Assembly (NCBI RefSeq): GCF_028368975.1
Contig: NZ_JAQNDM010000002.1
Span: forward strand, 4,582,425-4,646,424
Length of the DNA stretch: 64,000 nucleotides
From: Stigmatella ashevillena
GTDB taxonomy: Bacteria; Myxococcota; Myxococcia; Myxococcales; Myxococcaceae
Reading direction: 5' to 3'
The notes beneath the pieces are model-generated. The model did not search any database. It was not told the origin of the DNA and worked only from the letters and a program-made list of their open reading frames with translations. Shown here one piece after another: positions 28,968-60,928 of this stretch. Every line of letters begins with the position of its first letter. The stretch's first letter is position 1. Made by a program: the position numbers and the translations under genes.

Positions 28968-28989
28968 GAACAAACCGGCAGAGGACCCC

Positions 28990-29976
28990 TTACGAGTCGG
29001 TGCGAGCCACACGCGTTCCAATCTTCCGGAACCGTTCCAAAAGCAGATCCCCAGCCAGCACCGATCGCCGGTTGCCGGAGGTCTCCTCGTGCACGGACAG
29101 TGTCTTGAGCGGGTTGGGGACGAAAAAGAAGACGACGGCCCAGCGGCTCGCAGCGTCCGCACCCGTCTGCGGATTGACGACCTGATGCAGCGTTGGGCGA
29201 AGGCCTCCGCCTTTGATCATGGCGAGGATCTCCCCGATGTTCACCGTCGTGTAGTCCTGGAGTTCCGAGTCCAGGACCACCCACTCCCCGGCCGGAGTGC
29301 AGAACTGCAACCCCGGGTGGGAGGCTGGAAGCTGGAGGCCGATCATGTTGATGCCGGTATGCGGTGCCGCGCGCATTGCGCCCTGAGCGGCCCGGCGCTC
29401 TTCCACGGCCGGGTAGTGGAGCATCCGCAAGACGTGCTTGCCGTCCAGCACCACGTTGTCGAGCGCGCCGACATCCATGCCAGCGACCGTTCCCACCAAG
29501 CGGAGCACGAGGTGGGCACATTCCGTGAGCTGCCGGAAGAGCGTCTCGAACAGCGGCCGGAATTCCGCCGGGACGGAGGGCCACGGATTGAGGGGGTAGT
29601 GCGCGCTCATGGGATGAGCCGAGTCGATCAGCGGCCCCAAATGAATGAACTCTTTCAGGTCCGCCTGCGCATGGTTCATCGCAGTCTCGGTCAGGTAGGG
29701 GTAATACCCCACGTCTCCGAACGCCTTCTGGTCGACGGACCGATGGTCGATCTCCAGCTTCTTGTCCAGGGGAAGGGAAAAGAACTCCTTGCCAATGGCA
29801 TAACAGCGCTTCACGAGCTCAGGATCGATCGGAGAGCGCTCCAGGACGAGAAACCCGAACTTCTCGAGCGCATGCCGTGCACGCTCGACCTGGCCCGAGG
29901 CGTCTCCTTTCTCGCGGTAGGCAAGAATATCCAGGCAGGGGACGTCGCTCCTGTGCAGGACTTTCACTTCGCTCAT
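28990..29976 (-). CDS. Isopenicillin-N-synthase-like Fe/2-oxoglutarate enzyme with an H-x-G metal site
   Basis: 328 residues from ATG 29976 (AAGGAGAG just upstream). The double-stranded beta-helix core of the isopenicillin N synthase / 2-oxoglutarate oxygenase family is clear. The bacterial family motif normally reads A-H-E-D-I-N-L-I-T. Here it reads P-H206-T-G208-I-N-M-I-G, so the metal-binding carboxylate is replaced by Gly. The distal His (H264 in TLHQVVNP) and the 2-oxoglutarate-binding Arg (R278 in SRWAVVFFFVP) are kept. Loss of this Asp/Glu to Gly or Ala is the hallmark of Fe/2OG halogenases (WelO5, BesD, SyrB2), where halide takes the open site. The gene overlaps the deoxyribosyltransferase-like gene by ATGA, so the two are translationally coupled. 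Halogenase activity is inference. A non-catalytic protein or unusual oxygenase is possible. Confidence 0.82.
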   Translation of the reverse strand: MSEVKVLHRSDVPCLDILAYREKGDASGQVERARHALEKFGFLVLERSPIDPELVKRCYAIGKEFFSLPLDKKLEIDHRSVDQKAFGDVGYYPYLTETAMNHAQADLKEFIHLGPLIDSAHPMSAHYPLNPWPSVPAEFRPLFETLFRQLTECAHLVLRLVGTVAGMDVGALDNVVLDGKHVLRMLHYPAVEERRAAQGAMRAAPHTGINMIGLQLPASHPGLQFCTPAGEWVVLDSELQDYTTVNIGEILAMIKGGGLRPTLHQVVNPQTGADAASRWAVVFFFVPNPLKTLSVHEETSGNRRSVLAGDLLLERFRKIGTRVARTDS

Positions 29977-30806
29977 CGCTCTCTCCTTGGGGGGTAGGCT
30001 TCTGGATGGAAGGACTGCACGGACGCGCCAGAGGTGCGCGCGCTGCCTGGAATGTGGCCATTCCAAGGGTCCACGCGGAACCGCTCGCGAGAGCGCTTGA
30101 TGAATGAGGCGATCTCCTCGGTCTGCCGCAACCTCGAGGCGGGCGGGCCCTGTCTGCCACCGTGGCGCGACATGAGCTCCTGGAGGTGCCTGCCAAGCTC
30201 CAGAGGCCGCAGGATGTGCTCGGGCAGGTGTTCCGTGCCAGGAAGTAAAGGCTTCGAGACAAGCACGGCCTCGAGCCTCTGGAGCAGTTCCGGGTAGCTG
30301 CTGGCCGCATAGCCCGCGCCCCCCAGGTGGAAGTTGTTCAGCATCCCGATGACCATGGGATTGTCCCAACCCTCCTGGCGGGTGGAGCCCACCGGGAAGT
30401 AGCGGATGTCTTCTTCCTTGTAGGCCACCACGGGTCTGCCGGACGCGTAGGCCAGCGAGAGCTCCATGACCGTGCCCGAGTCAGGGTTCACGGAGCAGCA
30501 CTCGAAGGGGCTCAGGTTCGCGACAACCGCCTGGCAATGCTCCAGAAGGTTGAAGAGGTCGAAGGCAAACACGGCCACCATGAGGTAGTACCGGTCTTCT
30601 GCCTTTTTCTCCGGGCTCCAACCTGCCTCATCCATGAGGTGAAAGATTTCAAGCAGGGGAAAGCCGTCATCCACCGGGGCGAAGGTGCTGTACCCAGCCT
30701 CCCGGAGGACCGAGGAGAGCGCTCGCATCTTCGAGAAGTCCTGAGTACCTCCCATAGGGCCCGCACAATAGATGCGGGCGCGCTTGGGGCTCTCCATTCG
30801 GTCCAT
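29973..30806 (-). CDS. Nucleoside 2-deoxyribosyltransferase-like protein with C-terminal extension
   Basis: 277 residues, longer than the usual 150-190. Family signs: RIYCAGPMGGTQDFSK at the N-terminus, CQAVVANLSPF, and D109-S-G-T-V-M-E115, in which the Glu is the expected nucleophile. Further signs are ASGRPVVAYKEEDIR and the downstream DNPM. Family enzymes swap or hydrolyse the base of 2'-deoxynucleosides; relatives cleave modified nucleotides. The last 80 residues are an added, mostly helical and then basic segment not seen in the core family. The stop overlaps the next start (ATGA), so this is the first gene of a two-gene operon with the HxG oxygenase. GGGAG precedes ATG 30806; ATG 30797 is an alternative. 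Confidence 0.8.
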   Translation of the reverse strand: MDRMESPKRARIYCAGPMGGTQDFSKMRALSSVLREAGYSTFAPVDDGFPLLEIFHLMDEAGWSPEKKAEDRYYLMVAVFAFDLFNLLEHCQAVVANLSPFECCSVNPDSGTVMELSLAYASGRPVVAYKEEDIRYFPVGSTRQEGWDNPMVIGMLNNFHLGGAGYAASSYPELLQRLEAVLVSKPLLPGTEHLPEHILRPLELGRHLQELMSRHGGRQGPPASRLRQTEEIASFIKRSRERFRVDPWNGHIPGSARTSGASVQSFHPEAYPPRRER

Positions 30807-30901
30807 GGGCGGGGGTCTCCCTGCTTCGCATGGGCAATCGATATACGTCTAGTTGGTGCTAAAAGCACATGGATTTTGATGATGGAATCCTTTCTTGCCG
30901 A

Positions 30902-47817: not shown

Positions 47818-49152
47818 TCAGAGCCGGTACCGCTCCGCCTCATGGAAGAACTGGGTGAGCGAGTAGTCCAGCAGCGACTGGCGGGACTGCATGTACCGGC
47901 GGGCGCGGAGGAAGGGCAGCCAGACGCGCTCGCCAACACGCACCTGGGACTCTTCCATCTTCTGCCGCAGTACCCACGTCCCTCCCAGTCGCCGCACCAG
48001 CACGTCCCCCAGGTAAGCCCCGAGCGCCGGTGCGGTGTGCCCGTCAACGAGTTCGCGCGTGCACCGCTCTGGGAAGTTCTCCCGCCAGAAGTAGAAGTCC
48101 AGGTCCGTGAGAGACTCGGGCGTCTTGTTCATGATGGACGGAACCTTGGTGTGCAGCGCTGCCACGAGGCCCTCGGACAGATCGTCGTAGTGGCTGCGGA
48201 CGCGCTCCGGGTTCTCCACATCTGACGGCAACGCGACTGGCAGCCACTCCTCCGGCGCGGGTGGCCGGAAGGCGTTGAGTTCGGCAATCTTCCGTTGCCG
48301 CTCGTGTATCGGAGCCCTGTCCACCACTCGAGAAAGAAGCGGCGCCAATTCTGGATGGAAGTTGGGCTCAACGGGAACAAGTGCAGCACTTCGCTCGCGA
48401 AGCGTGCGCATCACTGTGTCGAAATCGAGGTCTGGCCACAGGTGGACGTGGGCACGGGCCTGGGCAATACGGGCCCCCTCGCTGGCAAAATCCGCAGCCG
48501 TAGGCCACGTCACCAGGAGAATGGAGCCATTGGGAAGCTCTTCAACTCGGTGCGTCGGAGTCGAGAGTATCCGCTCGCGGCCTATGGTCTCCACCAGCTT
48601 CGGACCGAAGACATTGAGCCAAGATACTTCGTGCACCTTGTCGAACGCCTCTCTGAGTGAACTCTCCTCGTCATGACCGGAGTAGGGAGCACCCGCCAAC
48701 TCGTCATCCGCCATACTGTGGGCCGATGCGTATGAAACTGGGTATCGCCCAGCCCACTCGCGCACCATCTCCACAAAGCGACCGCTTTTCTCCGCCGCCG
48801 CAAACAATCCAAGGGACTCTATATGGAGCGAGACCCCCAACCGGGGAGGTAGCGGTGGAAACCGGAGCCTCAGCGTCATATCCAACGCAGGCCGCTGCGT
48901 GCGATAGAGACCAATGGTCGCAGTCTTTTCTCTTCGAGCTTCCTCGTACGCCTTCCAGATGGCATCTCGGGAATACTTACGACCGCGTTTCCCTTCGACA
49001 ACGTCCGGCATCCACTCGTCGGCATACTTCTCTAGAATCTCGAAGAGAGGCTCCAATTCAGCTTCAACCGAAGGCTCACCGTTGAAGGAGGACTCCAATG
49101 AAAGCATGAGGCGGTCTTCTGTCCTCGACGCCCATAGATTCAGGTGCTTCAT
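47818..49152 (-). CDS. Immunity-like protein, left unit
   Basis: 444 residues, exactly the length of the copy at 52466. The start ATG at 49152 overlaps the stop of the toxin-like gene by four bases (ATGA), so it is translated with it. It is probably cytoplasmic or periplasmic; no signal peptide is seen. Compared with its paralogue, the first 200 residues differ at many positions, whereas the last 70 (from GHTAPALGAYLGDVLVRRLG) are identical. Such a gradient suggests a specificity half that co-evolves with the toxin tip and a constant half. Immunity function is inferred from position, coupling and this pattern; I do not recognise the domain. Confidence 0.72.
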   Translation of the reverse strand: MKHLNLWASRTEDRLMLSLESSFNGEPSVEAELEPLFEILEKYADEWMPDVVEGKRGRKYSRDAIWKAYEEARREKTATIGLYRTQRPALDMTLRLRFPPLPPRLGVSLHIESLGLFAAAEKSGRFVEMVREWAGRYPVSYASAHSMADDELAGAPYSGHDEESSLREAFDKVHEVSWLNVFGPKLVETIGRERILSTPTHRVEELPNGSILLVTWPTAADFASEGARIAQARAHVHLWPDLDFDTVMRTLRERSAALVPVEPNFHPELAPLLSRVVDRAPIHERQRKIAELNAFRPPAPEEWLPVALPSDVENPERVRSHYDDLSEGLVAALHTKVPSIMNKTPESLTDLDFYFWRENFPERCTRELVDGHTAPALGAYLGDVLVRRLGGTWVLRQKMEESQVRVGERVWLPFLRARRYMQSRQSLLDYSLTQFFHEAERYRL

Positions 49153-51344
49153 TGAAACGACACCTCCACTCCAGGAACCGAGTCACGTGTACCACTCAAG
49201 GCGGGGCGCAATACCCTAGATTCCGCAGGCTTGAGGTCTCCCCCCTCGTAGATCAGGCGGACCCGCTGAACCTGCGTCTCCATTTCCATCCCGGGCCGCC
49301 GAATGTGCAGCGTCTCGCCGTAATACTTCAGGGCATTGCTCGCGTCCGCAGTCATCTGGGTTTCCAGCGCCTTGGGCTCCATTTCCGAAAGGTCCCGACT
49401 CTTGAGGCTGAACGTCTCCACGCGCGGCTTCGGGCCTGCGGCGGGCCCCGCCTCGATGACGAGCACGTCCGCGAAGCGGATGTCCGCCTTCGCCACTCCC
49501 ACGTGCGTCTCGATGCGCGGTTGATCGAAGTCCTTGAGCCACCGCCGCTGCGCCTGCGGGCGGGCCGCGTCCTCCTCCAGGAGGGCGACCATCTTCCTCT
49601 CGAATGCCAAGCCCCGGGCGTACCTGTCACGTACGAGCTGATAGCCGGCCCACTTCAGTGGCCCCTTCTCCGCAATCCCCTTCTTGATTTCCGCGGCCCT
49701 CGTCTCCAGGTACGCCACGTAGTCGGCCCAGAGTGGCTCCGCAGTGACTTCGGCAGGAGCCGCCTTCTGCAAGGCCTGGCGGTGCCTCGTCAGCTCCGCC
49801 ACGTTCACCGACAAGCGCTCTCCTGGGAACTCCGCCTCCCACTGCTTGAACTTCGCCTCCGCCACCTCGGCCGGAAGTCCGGCCGCCTCAGGGGGCACGG
49901 AGGGCCGAGTCCCCCCCCTTCGCCCAGAGCCCACGCGGGTGGACGTGGAACTCGAAGGCTCGCGGTACCGCACCGCCAACGTGGCCTGTGCCTGAACAAC
50001 GTTGCCTCGCGCCTCGTGCAGCGCCCGTGCTCCCGCCTCACCCCACTCCCCCACCAGAATGGCTGCGCCCCGGTCTTGCTGGAGGTAGCGGGCCAACTCT
50101 CCCACGACGCTCTCTCCTACTCGTGCCTCCAACCTCTCCAGCACCGCTTTCAGCGCCTCCACGCGAGGCACCACCGCCTGAAGCGAAGCTCCTTCCCGCC
50201 GGGAGAGGCCTGCTTCACGCAATGCGCGCGCCCCCTTGCCTCCTGCGTACAGGCCCACCAGGAGGGCCGCGGGCGCCAACTGCCGCGTGGCCTCCTCGTA
50301 CTCCCCCTGGGCGAGGGAAGCCCCGCCCTGCGCCGTCCCTGCCGCCAAGTGGTAGAAGCCCAGCGGCACACCGAAGGTGAGGTGGTCGAAGGACGCCAGG
50401 GCCACGTTGCCCGGCGCGAACGCCCCCAGGTATTGCGCCTTCTCCACCTCCTCGTATGCAGCCCGGTAGGGCGGTGGAAGCTGTGGGGGCAGCGCCGAAG
50501 CCTCCACGCTCCGGCTTCCTCCAACGAGAGGAATGGAGGCTGCGACGTCGTCCGCGGCCCGTCCCAGCCCGCGCGCGATGTCGCCCGCGCGGAAGTCCCG
50601 CTCCGGAAAGTCGGCGAGGGCCATGCCCCGCTGCTTCAGTTCCTCGCGCACCCCCTCCATGGCCCCCAAGGCGCGCTTGAGCAGCTTGTCCTCGGCCAAC
50701 AGGCGCAGCATTTGCCGCACCTCGTCGTCGTGGGTGGTGTGCAGGACGAAGAGGGCGAGGACTTCCGCCTTGGCTACACCGTGCTTCTCGACGACGGTGG
50801 CGAGGAAGGCCGCGCGCTTCTGGAGGAGGACGCGGGCGGCCTCGGCCTCCATGGGGCCCAGGGCGCCCAGCCGGACGGCGTTCCAGTCCGAGAGCTCCTC
50901 CACCAGCCGCGGCATGTCCGCCTGGCGCTGCAAGGCCAGGAAGGCCGCGGGCGTGGCGCACTCCAGGAAGGCCGCCAGCACCTCCTCCTCCGAGTCCAGG
51001 TGCGGCCAGCCCGAGGGTACTTCCCCGCATGCTCCTGCCAGGGCGCCCTCCACTCGCAAGGGCGTCGTCTCGCCTCCTCCAGGGCTGGGAGATGGCGCGG
51101 CCCGGCGACGGTGCAGGAGCGGCTCGGCCGCGGACTCCTCCTCGTCGAACCCCATGAGCGCGTCGTCCTCGGGGAGACTCGCGACAGCACTCCGCCCCAA
51201 GGCCGCCATGGGCGTCGAGCCCGCGACAGCAGCCAGGGTGCCTCCAGGGCCCGCCCGCGAGGGCAACGAGGCACACCCCGCCGTGAGGAGTGCCAGGGCC
51301 AGCACCCAGTCGGCTCCGCCGCGGAGCAGTCGCTCAGCGCGCAT
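49149..51344 (-). CDS. SitA-like toxin lipoprotein, left unit
   Basis: 731 residues. The signal RLLRGGADWVLALALLTAGC has a perfect lipobox (LTAGC). The first 640 residues are nearly identical to the copy at 53797; the last 90 diverge. Middle parts are helical, Ala/Leu/Glu-rich (AFLECATPAAFLALQRQADM) with one hydrophobic, Gly-rich region (ALASFDHLTFGVPLGFYHLA). The C-terminal domain (about 580-731) has FERKMVALLEED, RFADVLVIEA and VETFSLKSRD, which recalls a PD-(D/E)xK nuclease core although the E-x-K is S-L-K. A lipoprotein with constant N-terminus and variable tip plus a coupled immunity gene is the pattern of Myxococcus SitA toxins, which spread by outer-membrane exchange. The toxin role is inference. 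Confidence 0.72.
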   Translation of the reverse strand: MRAERLLRGGADWVLALALLTAGCASLPSRAGPGGTLAAVAGSTPMAALGRSAVASLPEDDALMGFDEEESAAEPLLHRRRAAPSPSPGGGETTPLRVEGALAGACGEVPSGWPHLDSEEEVLAAFLECATPAAFLALQRQADMPRLVEELSDWNAVRLGALGPMEAEAARVLLQKRAAFLATVVEKHGVAKAEVLALFVLHTTHDDEVRQMLRLLAEDKLLKRALGAMEGVREELKQRGMALADFPERDFRAGDIARGLGRAADDVAASIPLVGGSRSVEASALPPQLPPPYRAAYEEVEKAQYLGAFAPGNVALASFDHLTFGVPLGFYHLAAGTAQGGASLAQGEYEEATRQLAPAALLVGLYAGGKGARALREAGLSRREGASLQAVVPRVEALKAVLERLEARVGESVVGELARYLQQDRGAAILVGEWGEAGARALHEARGNVVQAQATLAVRYREPSSSTSTRVGSGRRGGTRPSVPPEAAGLPAEVAEAKFKQWEAEFPGERLSVNVAELTRHRQALQKAAPAEVTAEPLWADYVAYLETRAAEIKKGIAEKGPLKWAGYQLVRDRYARGLAFERKMVALLEEDAARPQAQRRWLKDFDQPRIETHVGVAKADIRFADVLVIEAGPAAGPKPRVETFSLKSRDLSEMEPKALETQMTADASNALKYYGETLHIRRPGMEMETQVQRVRLIYEGGDLKPAESRVLRPALSGTRDSVPGVEVSFQ

Positions 51345-52465: not shown

Positions 52466-53800
52466 TCAGAGCCGGTACCGCTCCGCCTCATGGAAGAACT
52501 GCGTGAGCGAGTAGTCCAACAGAGACTGGCGGGACTGCATGTACCGGCGGGCGCGGAGGAAGGGCAGCCAGACGCGCTCGCCAACACGCACCTGGGACTC
52601 TTCCATCTTCTGCCGCAGCACCCACGTCCCTCCCAGTCGCCGCACCAGCACGTCCCCCAGATAGGCTCCGAGCGCAGGCGCGGTGTGCCCATCGATGAGT
52701 TGCCGCTCGTACCTCTCCGGGAAGTTCTCCCGCCAGAAGTAGAAGTCCAGGTCCGTGAGAGACTCGGGCGTCTTGCCCATCATGGACGGCACCTGGGTGT
52801 GCAGCGCTGCCACGAGACCTTCGGACAGGTCGCCGTAGTGGCTGCGGGCGCGCTCGGGATTCTCCACGTCCGCAGGCAGAGCAACCGGGAGCCACTCCTC
52901 CGGCACGGGGGGCCGGAAGGCGTTGAGTTCGGCAATCTTCTGCTGCCGCTCGCTGATGGCAAACTCGTCCAGCAGCCGCCAGAGGAGCGGCACCAGGTCC
53001 GGGTGGAATCGAGGCGCCACCGGGGCGAGCGCAGCACTGCGCTCCCTCAGGGTGCGCAGCACCGTGTCGAAGTCGAGGTCCGGCCGCAGGTGGACGTGAG
53101 CACGGGCCTGGGCCATGCGCGCCTCTTCGCTGGCGAAGTCGGCAGCGGTGGGCCGCAGCACCAACAGGACGGCGCCGTTGGGGAGTTCTTCCACGAGGTG
53201 CGCCGGGGTCGAGAGCATTCGCGCTCGTCCTACGGACTCGACCCGCTTCGGGCCGAAGACATTGAGCCAGCATACCTCGTAGATCTTGTCGAACCCATCC
53301 CTCCGAGACACCTCCACTTCGCGGCCGAAATGGGGGAAGCCCGCCAACTCCCGGTCAGACATACTGTGTGCCGCAGCATATGAAACCGGATAGTGAGTCG
53401 CCCAAGCTCGGGCTATCTCGACGATGCCTTTACAGGCTCCTTCATTCGAGAAGTGCGCGAGCGGATTGACGTCGAGCCAGATATTGATCTCAGACGGGTG
53501 GGGCGGCAGCCAGAGCTCAAGCGTCAACTCCACAGCAGGGGACTCCGCGCGGTAAAGCGCGACAGACGCACTGTCATCGTCGCGGCGCTCCTTCAGTGCC
53601 TGCCAGAAGGCAGCGCGTGCATACTTTCGTTTCCGTGCCCCTTTGACGACATCAGGAGCCCAGTCCCCTGCGCATTCCTCAAGTGCATCGAGAAACGGGA
53701 CAAGCTCAGCCTCTATTTCAGTTTGGTCGCTGAACGTGCCTTCGAGGGTGAGCAGAAGGTGATCGACTTTGCTCGTGCTGGGAGTCTTCGGTGCACTCAC
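52466..53800 (-). CDS. Immunity-like protein, right unit
   Basis: 444 residues from GTG 53800, which overlaps the toxin stop as GTGA, the same coupling as in the left unit. An ATG at 53860 would give 464 residues but would overlap the toxin gene by 64 bp and add a Gly/Glu-rich tail. Residues 1-200 (VDHLLLTLEGTFSDQTEIEA, SVALYRAESPAVELTLELWL) differ much from the left paralogue; the last 70 are identical. A related pattern NPLAHFSNEGACKGIVEIAR marks a conserved central domain. Expected to neutralise the toxin encoded just upstream; not recognised as a named immunity family. Confidence 0.72.
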   Translation of the reverse strand: MSAPKTPSTSKVDHLLLTLEGTFSDQTEIEAELVPFLDALEECAGDWAPDVVKGARKRKYARAAFWQALKERRDDDSASVALYRAESPAVELTLELWLPPHPSEINIWLDVNPLAHFSNEGACKGIVEIARAWATHYPVSYAAAHSMSDRELAGFPHFGREVEVSRRDGFDKIYEVCWLNVFGPKRVESVGRARMLSTPAHLVEELPNGAVLLVLRPTAADFASEEARMAQARAHVHLRPDLDFDTVLRTLRERSAALAPVAPRFHPDLVPLLWRLLDEFAISERQQKIAELNAFRPPVPEEWLPVALPADVENPERARSHYGDLSEGLVAALHTQVPSMMGKTPESLTDLDFYFWRENFPERYERQLIDGHTAPALGAYLGDVLVRRLGGTWVLRQKMEESQVRVGERVWLPFLRARRYMQSRQSLLDYSLTQFFHEAERYRL

Positions 53801-55989
53801 TGGACCAGCACCTCCACCGCGGGAACTTTCCTCTGCGTGCGTCTCAATGCGGTCTCCCAAACTTCCGGTTTCGTGGGCTTGAGAGTCCCTTCATAAACGA
53901 GGCGAACCCTCTGGACTCGTGCCTGCTGCCGCATCCCTTCTCGGAGGATGTTTAATTCACCACCGTAATACCGCAGTGCGCTGCTCGCGTCCGTAGTCAT
54001 TTGTGCCGATAGAGAGTCCTTGTCCATCGCCTTGAGGTCCCGACTCTTGAGGCTGAACGTCTCCACGCGCGGCTTCGGGCCTGCGGCGGGCCCCGCCTCG
54101 ATGACGAGCACGTCCGCGAAGCGGATGTCCACCTTTGCCACCCCCACGTGCGTCTCGATGCGCGGTTGATCGAAGTCCTTGAGCCACCGCCGCTGCGCCC
54201 GCGGGCGGGCCGCGTCCTCCTCCAGGAGGGCGACCATCTTCCTCTCGAAGTCCAAGCCCCGGGCGTACCTGTCACGTACGAGCTGATAGCCGGCCCACTT
54301 CAGTGGCCCCTTCTCCGCAATCCCCTTCTTGATTTCCGCGGCCCTCGTCTCCAGGTACGCCACGTAGTCGGACCAGAGTGGCTCCGTTGCAACTTCGGCA
54401 GGAGCCGCCTTCTGCAAGGCCTGGCGGTGCCTCGTCAGCTCCGCCACGTTCACCGACAAGCGCTCTCCTGGGAACTCCGCCTCCCACTGCTTGAACTTCG
54501 CCTCCGCCACCTCGGCCGGAAGTCCGGCCGCCTCAGGGGGCACGGAGGGTCTACTGCCGCCTCTTCTCCCTGCCCCCCCGCCGGTGGACGCGACACTCGG
54601 GGGCTCGCGGTGCCGCACAGCCAATGTGGCCTGTGCCTGAACAACGTTGCCTCGCGCCTCGTGCAGCGCCAGTGCTCCCGCCTCACCCCACTCCCCCACC
54701 AGAATGGCGGCAGCCCGGTCCTGCTGGAGGTAGCGGGCCAACTCTCCCACGACGCTCTCTCCTACTCGCGCCTCCAACCTCTCCAGCACCGCTTTCAGCG
54801 CCTCCACGCGAGGCACCACCGCCTGAAGCGGAGCTCCTTCCCGCCGGGAGAGGCCTGCTTCACGCAATGCGCGCGCCCCCTTGCCTCCTGCGTACAGGCC
54901 CACCAGGAGGGCCGCGGGCGCCAACTGCCGCGTGGCCTCCTCGTACTCCCCCTGGGCGAGGGAAGCCCCGCCCTGCGCCGTCCCCGCCGCCAAGTGGTAG
55001 AAGCCCAGCGGCACACCGAAGGTGAGGTGGTCGAAGGACGCCAGGGCCACGTTGCCCGGCGCGAACGCCCCCAGGTATTGCGCCTTCTCCACCTCCTCGT
55101 ATGCAGCCCGGTAGGGCGGTGGAAGCTGTGGGGGCAGCGCCGAAGCCTCCACGCTCCGGCTTCCTCCAACGAGAGGAATGGAGGCTGCGACGTCGTCCGC
55201 GGCCCGTCCCAGCCCGCGCGCGATGTCGCCCGCGCGGAAGTCCCGCTCCGGAAAGTCGGCGAGGGCCATGCCCCGCTGCTTCAGTTCCTCGCGCACCCCC
55301 TCCATGGCCCCCAGGGCGCGCTTGAGCAGCTTGTCCTCGGCCAACAGGCGCAGCAGTTGCCGCACCTCGTCGTCGTGGGTGGTGTGCAGGACGAAGAGGG
55401 CGAGGACTTCCGCCTTGGCTACACCGTGCTTCTCGACGGCGGTGGCGAGGAAGGCCGCGCGCTTCTGGAGGAGGACACGGGCGGCCTCGGCCTCCATGGG
55501 GCCCAGGGCGCCCAGCCGGACGGCGTCCCAGTCCGAGAGCTCCTCCACCAGCCGCGGCATGTCCGCCTGGCGCTGCAAGGCCAGGAAGGCCGCGGGCGTG
55601 GCGCACTCCAGGAAGGCCGCCAGCACCTCCTCCTCCGAGTCCAGGTGCGGCCAGCCCGAGGGTACTTCCCCGCATGCTCCTGCCAGGGCGCCCTCCACTC
55701 GCAAGGGCGTCGTCTCGCCTCCTCCAGGGCTGGGAGATGGCGCGGCCCGGCGACGGTGCAGGAGCGGCTCGGCCGCGGACTCCTCCTCGTCGAACCCCAT
55801 GAGCGCGTCGTCCTCGGGGAGACTCGCGACAGCACTCCGCCCCAAGGCCGCCATGGGCGTCGAGCCCGCGACAGCAGCCAGGGTGCCTCCTGGGCCCGCC
55901 CGCGAGGGCAACGAGGCGCACCCCGCCGTGAGGAGTGCCAGGGCCAGCACCCAGTCGGCTCCGCCGCGGAGCAGTCGCTCAGCGCGCAT
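53797..55989 (-). CDS. SitA-like toxin lipoprotein, right unit
   Basis: 730 residues, with the same signal and lipobox (LTAGC) as the left copy. It is nearly identical to that copy up to VETFSLKSRD, near residue 640. After that the tip changes: left SEMEPKALETQMTADAS, right KAMDKDSLSAQMTTDASS, and further divergence to the end. A second variable patch is the linker at about residues 475-495. The start overlaps the barrel gene by 11 bp and the stop overlaps the immunity gene by 4 bp, so barrel, toxin and immunity are translationally coupled. The TIGR02269-type or SitA-type lipoproteins of Myxococcus have similar layout; assignment is by architecture. Confidence 0.72.
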   Translation of the reverse strand: MRAERLLRGGADWVLALALLTAGCASLPSRAGPGGTLAAVAGSTPMAALGRSAVASLPEDDALMGFDEEESAAEPLLHRRRAAPSPSPGGGETTPLRVEGALAGACGEVPSGWPHLDSEEEVLAAFLECATPAAFLALQRQADMPRLVEELSDWDAVRLGALGPMEAEAARVLLQKRAAFLATAVEKHGVAKAEVLALFVLHTTHDDEVRQLLRLLAEDKLLKRALGAMEGVREELKQRGMALADFPERDFRAGDIARGLGRAADDVAASIPLVGGSRSVEASALPPQLPPPYRAAYEEVEKAQYLGAFAPGNVALASFDHLTFGVPLGFYHLAAGTAQGGASLAQGEYEEATRQLAPAALLVGLYAGGKGARALREAGLSRREGAPLQAVVPRVEALKAVLERLEARVGESVVGELARYLQQDRAAAILVGEWGEAGALALHEARGNVVQAQATLAVRHREPPSVASTGGGAGRRGGSRPSVPPEAAGLPAEVAEAKFKQWEAEFPGERLSVNVAELTRHRQALQKAAPAEVATEPLWSDYVAYLETRAAEIKKGIAEKGPLKWAGYQLVRDRYARGLDFERKMVALLEEDAARPRAQRRWLKDFDQPRIETHVGVAKVDIRFADVLVIEAGPAAGPKPRVETFSLKSRDLKAMDKDSLSAQMTTDASSALRYYGGELNILREGMRQQARVQRVRLVYEGTLKPTKPEVWETALRRTQRKVPAVEVLVQ

Positions 55990-59776: not shown

Positions 59777-60928
59777 GTGACATCCTCCGCCATCACCCAG
59801 CAACAGGTGCATACCTTTCTCTCCAGCCTCTTCGAAGAGGATCTGCACGCCAAGCGAGTGCTGTCGCTGTCGCTGGCCACCTTGGGCGTCATCCACGCCG
59901 CGAGCCTGTCGGTGTACGCCATCGGCCAAGCGCTGGCGATGGCTCGAGGCACTCAGGGCAAGCACGGGATAAAACAAGTGGACCGACTGCTATCCAACAC
60001 GGGGATACCTGTATGGGACCTGTTCTCGCTCTGGGTGCCGTACGTGCTGGGGCAGCGCAGCGAAGCCTTGGTGGCGCTGGACTGGACGGACTTCGAGGCC
60101 GATGATCAGACGACGCTGGTGGCCTCGCTGGTTACTCAGCATGGACGGCCCACGCCCTTGGTGTGGCTGAGCGTGCACAAATCCACCCTCAAGGGCCTGC
60201 GCAACGAGGTGGAAGACGCAGTGGTGCTGAGGCTGCGCGAAGTCATCCCCGCCGAGGTGAAGGTGACGTTCGTGGCGGACCGGGGCTTTGCCGACCAGAA
60301 GCTCTACGCCCTGCTGGGACAGGTGGGCTTCGAGTACGTGGTGCGTTTCCGCCAGTGCATTACCGTCACCAGTGACAAGGGCGAGCGGCGCACCGCGGCA
60401 GACTGGGTGCCCAAGGCAGGCCACCTGCGCAAACTGCCACAGGCCCTTGTCACCGCAGACTGCACACAGGTGGGCGCGGTGGTGTGCGTGAAGAAGAAAG
60501 GCATGAAGGAGCCGTGGTGTCTGGCCACCAGTCTACACCTGGCTTCAGCGGCCGAAGTGGTGGCGCTCTACAGCCGCAGATTCACCATCGAGGAGAGCTT
60601 CCGGGACATCAAGGACCTGAAGTTCGGCATGGGGCTGTCTGAAGTGCGCATCGCTGAACCGGAGAGGCGCGACCGACTGCTGCTGCTCAGTGCCTTGGCG
60701 TGTGCACTGCTGACGCTGCTGGGCGCCGCAGGTGAGAGTCTGGGCATGGAGCGCCAGCTCAAGGCCAACACCGACAAGCGCCGCACCTACTCGCTGTTCC
60801 GCCAGGGCTGCATGTACTACCAAGCCATTCCCAACATGCCTGAGCACCGCTTGCGCCCTCTCATCGAGCGATTCATTCAACTTCTCAGCCAGCAGCCCCT
60901 TTTCAGCCACGCCTTCGGGGTCATTTGA
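59777..60928 (+). CDS. IS4-family DDE transposase
   Basis: 383 residues from GTG 59777. The DDE elements are visible: first Asp in VALDWTDFEAD, second Asp in TFVADRGFAD, and the Y-R-E-K signature in LYSRRFTIEESFRDIKDLKF, which contains the catalytic Glu. It cuts and joins the ends of its own element. The TGA stop at 60926-60928 reaches into the right inverted repeat. No frameshift or second frame is needed. Confidence 0.93.
   Translation: MTSSAITQQQVHTFLSSLFEEDLHAKRVLSLSLATLGVIHAASLSVYAIGQALAMARGTQGKHGIKQVDRLLSNTGIPVWDLFSLWVPYVLGQRSEALVALDWTDFEADDQTTLVASLVTQHGRPTPLVWLSVHKSTLKGLRNEVEDAVVLRLREVIPAEVKVTFVADRGFADQKLYALLGQVGFEYVVRFRQCITVTSDKGERRTAADWVPKAGHLRKLPQALVTADCTQVGAVVCVKKKGMKEPWCLATSLHLASAAEVVALYSRRFTIEESFRDIKDLKFGMGLSEVRIAEPERRDRLLLLSALACALLTLLGAAGESLGMERQLKANTDKRRTYSLFRQGCMYYQAIPNMPEHRLRPLIERFIQLLSQQPLFSHAFGVI

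Follow-up and report, generated by a model that had tools for sequence, protein, structure and literature searches.

Iron(II)- and 2-oxoglutarate (2OG)-dependent halogenases of the class that holds WelO5, BesD, SyrB2 and AdaV carry an HxG/A iron site. AdaV/AdeV from Actinomadura sp. ATCC 39365 (PDB 7w5s, 7fh5, 7v7x), an enzyme of the 2'-chloropentostatin/adechlorin pathway, presents this site in an IPNS-like fold, and serves that pathway as its dAMP 2'-chlorinase (PMC12766721). Two AdaV-related dGMP 2'-chlorinases, CtNTH and VaNTH, were found by homology to AdaV (30% cutoff) together with an HXG/A motif, and come from the actinomycetes Catellatospora and Virgisporangium (PMC11186838). The nucleotide halogenases of named source in the cited literature are actinomycete, and a literature search of open-licence papers found no myxobacterial nucleotide halogenase.

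The DNA analysed here (the window) is a stretch of 64,000 nucleotides, contig positions 4582425-4646424 in the 10.95 Mb genome of Stigmatella ashevillena, a predatory soil bacterium (myxobacterium). Two leftward genes were found in it, at the coordinates and with the ATGA overlap that the first-pass annotation described: a transferase gene (29973..30806, minus strand) encoding a 277-aa nucleoside 2'-deoxyribosyltransferase/DNPH1-fold protein (Pfam Nuc_deoxyrib_tr, PF05014, 1.9e-12), and an oxygenase gene (28990..29976, minus strand) encoding a 328-aa Fe(II)/2OG enzyme of IPNS-like fold (Pfam DIOX_N 2.5e-16 and 2OG-FeII_Oxy 4.7e-9), a putative (deoxy)nucleoside/nucleotide halogenase. The ATGA (29973..29976, minus strand) combines the transferase stop with the oxygenase start, and likely reflects translational coupling of the two genes.

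Motif reading of the oxygenase placed H206, T, G208, H264 and R278 at the iron/2OG site, and the initial reading of H206-x-G208 with H264 and R278 intact was confirmed at those positions. Gly thus replaces the carboxylate ligand while the distal His and the 2OG Arg are kept, as in Fe/2OG halogenases, and the extended signature reads H-T-G-I-N-M-I-G-L-Q-L-P-A-S-H-P-G-L-Q-F. An AlphaFold2 model of the oxygenase (pLDDT 91.4) had TraH, thymine 7-hydroxylase, 3oox and IPNS among its fold matches, with Z scores of about 29-34 overall and about 32 for thymine 7-hydroxylase and IPNS-like enzymes; AdaV was not among the 50 structural matches listed for the model (VIA-align), which says nothing either way. 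A search of solved structures with the whole oxygenase returned AdaV and the 7w5s halogenase among its matches.

In a comparison with 145 genomes from its order, the oxygenase had its closest relative in an enzyme of the Archangium sp. SZUA-606 MAG (G121; 42% identical), which also reads H-T-G, and the remaining fetched myxobacterial homologues were about 33% identical and read H-E-D. An earlier contig scan of genomes with a single protein as query gave no matches. Scanning 84,980 genomes with a two-protein alignment (window oxygenase and Archangium relative) returned 80 loci, and H-T-G was present in 2 of those with a readable motif, the Archangium MAG and the alphaproteobacterium Pseudaestuariivita rosea H15, whose enzyme is about 31% identical to the window oxygenase; the others read H-x-D. 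A degenerate pattern (HTGI-x3-G-x-Q), blind to AdaV itself (HSG) and to other spellings, was matched in 2/195 Myxococcota, 1/385 Alphaproteobacteria and 0/395 Actinomycetes, all three matches being the trio already known. Since the pattern scans yielded nobody beyond the trio, the HTG lineage appears to be rare, as far as scans that would miss HSG forms can tell. The only viral relative of the oxygenase found reads HED, and two pattern matches in viral contigs were rejected as short chance frames. A sporadic mutation to Gly208 was likewise rejected, because the same Gly occurs in the 42% identical relative and in a third relative from another phylum; the question posed by the first-pass annotation, whether Gly208 is conserved in a clade, is answered by HTG in three proteins from two phyla that form one group in the tree. 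No replacement carboxylate was evident near the iron site in a 28-protein alignment, where none of the columns acidic in all three proteins was, at that site, new to the trio.

AdaV and the window oxygenase are 31.6% identical over 190 aligned columns, and have in common the loop H-S/T-G-I-Q/N-M-L/I-G-L-Q-L-P-x-S-x-x-G-L-Q-Y/F. In the alignment, HSGIQMLGLQLPPSDQGLQY of AdaV corresponds to HTGINMIGLQLPASHPGLQF of the oxygenase, and the same loop reads HTGIQMLGLQPRTTHPGLQF in the Archangium MAG enzyme, HTGINLIGVQPKQTHRGLQY in the P. rosea enzyme, and HEDINLITLLCEGTASGLE in an example HxD relative. Five residues (I111, G208, G213, Q215 and V282) were common to the trio and AdaV and occurred in 0/24 HxD rows of the 28-protein alignment. 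The AdaV crystal entry 7v54 has Ala at the position matching G213, so the G213 equivalent was probably of interest to the authors of that structure. The solved and paralogous enzymes closest to the oxygenase in overall sequence are 3oox (Caulobacter CC_0200) and the myxobacterial HED paralogues (e.g. G000:C2:8530229), but these keep HxD and are without its Gly213 and Gln215. Residue matching to AdaV (PDB chain offset +20 for 7fh5) paired the AdaV substrate residues Asp105, Lys107, Arg177 and Phe271 with D106, K108, R184 and F284 of the oxygenase; since HxD relatives keep these four residues, they are family-wide and not diagnostic of a nucleotide. AdaV His192, in contrast, is Ala204 in the oxygenase, and the phosphate ligand Arg237 is Glu249, with Glu in both HTG relatives too. 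The oxygenase therefore has the IPNS-like fold with HxG inside the GI-x-M-x-GLQLP-x-S-x-x-GLQ loop of AdaV-type enzymes and lacks their second phosphate ligand (Arg237/Arg238), and for the latter reason was filed as a sister lineage, not as a member of the AdaV type; the CtNTH R238A variant kept 75% activity, and the equivalent Arg is not essential. By their published description, CtNTH and VaNTH agree with the type proposed for the oxygenase in HXG/A, nucleotide 2'-chlorination and homology to AdaV, and differ from the Gram-negative HTG trio in their actinomycete origin (PMC11186838).

In a maximum-likelihood tree, the trio and AdaV formed one group (support 99/100). After removal of residues 203-227 the trio still grouped at 99/100, and AdaV was no longer placed with it (77/94 with 3on7); an AU test of the union of trio and AdaV outside the loop gave p 0.385, neither favouring nor rejecting that union, with AdaV present as a 190-column fragment on a long branch. 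Since AdaV is unplaced once the loop is removed, its grouping with the trio rests on the signature loop. The HTG trio thus stands as a real lineage, linked to AdaV either by descent or by active-site convergence. The first-pass annotation had called the oxygenase an unusual halogenase scaffold, a view that did not hold, because AdaV/AdeV has the same fold and nearly the same loop and, together with the dGMP chlorinases, already defines an IPNS-like HxG nucleotide halogenase.

The transferase bears the nucleoside 2-deoxyribosyltransferase motif noted at the outset, which reads D109-S-G-T-V-M-E115, and its conserved residues are Y13, G16-P17, D109, G111, T112 and E115; it thus has the Rossmann-like fold, the catalytic Asp/Glu in D-x-G-T-x-x-E, and the N-terminal Tyr of PF05014. 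Its model (mean pLDDT 66.4, confident in the core only) matched the 7o62 deoxyribosyltransferase and DNPH1, and since both are fold matches, either deoxyribosyltransferase or DNPH1-type activity is predicted. Fold and catalytic D-x-G-T-x-x-E are as in the nucleoside 2'-deoxyribosyltransferases (7o62, 2a0k) and DNPH1, but the 277-aa transferase, unlike these, has a long C-terminal extension. The Asn of the NLM motif binds the free 5'-OH in deoxyribosyltransferases and sets them apart from DNPH1-type nucleotide hydrolases; MAFFT places it at N158 (NNF) in the transferase, with N149-P-M as an alternative, and the model has a pLDDT of about 35 there. The transferase was absent from all other genomes among 195 Myxococcota, and a search of phage records gave no relatives at E 0.01.

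The flanks of the pair align with the syntenic site of a congener (G078) at 86-88% identity, and no pair is present there. The stretch that is unalignable to this site (28968..30896) measures 1.93 kb and contains just the pair, with no further genes. Since the congener has no pair although its flanks are about 87% identical, the two genes behave as a two-gene cassette, which was probably acquired horizontally; gain here rather than loss or replacement in the congener, with one congener compared, is favoured because the transferase is absent in other Myxococcota. The congener carries a GON-domain protein gene in place of the pair (L140 8915-10513), which suggests that the two conserved genes on either side enclose a slot of variable content. 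No direct or inverted repeats of at least 8 bases were found at the cassette ends, and PADLOC gave no match to a known defence system. Neighbours in the window are a GH92 glycosidase, an uncharacterised protein and a Ser/Thr kinase-AAA-GAF-histidine kinase, and there is no exporter, resistance or tailoring gene near the pair, so that the pair is not surrounded by genes typical of a nucleoside antibiotic cluster; the remark that no larger antibiotic cluster is visible stands, since the neighbours have other functions and the pair-less congener keeps the flanking genes in synteny.

Elsewhere in the window, a two-gene unit occurs in tandem duplicate (47818-51344 and 52466-55989, minus strand), made up of a 730-aa lipoprotein whose C-terminus varies (the DNA is 96.6% identical over 2,051 bp) and a 444/464-aa partner. 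This unit gave no Pfam or NCBIfam matches, and might be a lipoprotein toxin/immunity pair. A frame resembling an IS-type transposase lies at 59777-60928 (plus strand).

The HTG gene of P. rosea lies between genes for an MFS transporter and a carbamoyltransferase, with ribonucleotide reductase, histidine phosphatase, metallophosphatase and CYTH protein genes upstream, together with a frame like a LuxR-type regulator, and transposase and recombinase genes after the carbamoyltransferase. The ribonucleotide reductase is an extra (third) one, since the genome has two further ones, and the locus (NZ_JACNMP010000046.1, L046 825-10757) is a candidate halogenated-nucleoside gene cluster. Bmp/PnrA-like proteins can bind nucleosides, and in the Archangium MAG (L035 7829-10303) the HTG gene lies about 170 bp downstream of a Bmp/PnrA-like lipoprotein gene, a link that may be due to chance; no deoxyribosyltransferase gene accompanies it. 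A standing pairing of oxygenase and deoxyribosyltransferase, as entertained by the first-pass annotation, is contradicted by these loci, the other two HTG enzymes having other neighbours; AdaV, too, has gene partners different from that of the oxygenase.

Taken together, we assign a probability of roughly 55% to a cassette that modifies a 2'-deoxynucleoside, in which the oxygenase would be a (deoxy)nucleoside/nucleotide halogenase, sister to the AdaV type, and the transferase would act before it. The near-identity of the loop to that of AdaV, and the P. rosea cluster, strengthen the earlier suggestion of a halogenase-type H-x-G iron site, and likewise make the deoxynucleoside or nucleotide substrate a likely one as far as sequence can indicate. 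With Asp replaced by Gly208, the oxygenase lacks the carboxylate iron ligand, and we infer that halide would take the vacated iron site, following the established mechanism of the class; O2 and 2OG would then yield a chloro-ferryl species that abstracts a C-H hydrogen, with rebound of Cl. Most likely the enzyme would act on the deoxyribose of a 2'-deoxynucleoside, free or as the 5'-phosphate, and analogy to AdaV favours C2' as the position. In the deoxyribosyltransferase (NDT) family, a sugar halogenated at position 2 slows or traps the covalent glycosyl-Glu intermediate, and since this stabilisation would make later action of the transferase poor, its step, base exchange or supply, most likely comes first.

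Halogenation of a small molecule that is not a nucleoside, with the transferase having come along or serving another step, is unlikely: the transferase occurs in the window genome only, the substrate residues that match AdaV are family-wide, Arg237 has given way to Glu249, and the fold neighbours use diverse substrates, but the ATGA overlap, a stretch that contains exactly these two genes, a P. rosea context that makes deoxynucleotides, and a loop that resembles a nucleotide halogenase more closely than it resembles any HxD enzyme all argue for a nucleoside. Somewhat less probable still is an HTG clade that binds iron and 2OG free of the carboxylate and takes a nucleoside or base as substrate for hydroxylation, desaturation or ring chemistry, in the manner of thymine 7-hydroxylase. 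That hydroxylase is one of the best matches by both sequence and fold but retains HxD, and hydroxylation is a side reaction of AdaV-type enzymes (PMC11186838, PMC12766721), whereas loss of the carboxylate combined with an AdaV-type loop is a halogenase signature. Absence of the gene from the sister species would suit a recent, dispensable arrival and hence a dead or decaying oxygenase whose iron ligand was lost by drift, yet the same Gly is found in relatives of 42% and 31% identity, one of another phylum, the frames are open, and all other catalytic residues are retained in the HTG relatives. With HTG and catalytic residues retained across the trio, decay is very improbable.

The preferred reading of a deoxynucleoside-modifying cassette can be carried further, to a conjecture that we regard as improbable in its full form. 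The pair would be a mobile, self-contained cassette: after a base swap by the transferase, the sugar would be chlorinated by the HTG halogenase, itself a representative of a new Gram-negative lineage. The product would be a 2'-deoxynucleoside that bears chlorine and an unusual base, and the only inputs would be halide, 2OG and deoxynucleosides of the cell. In P. rosea, the related locus would encode a larger pathway, one that makes, carbamoylates and exports its own deoxynucleotide.

The kind of enzyme, an IPNS-like HxG nucleotide halogenase, is already known, and what is new is the HTG lineage, carried here by a cassette that is rare and unusually small. A separate myxobacterial and alphaproteobacterial lineage would widen the set of enzymes for 2'-halogenated nucleosides, a drug-relevant modification. 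The lineage points to two unexplored loci, and chlorinated nucleosides may be products of bacteria where nobody has sought them.
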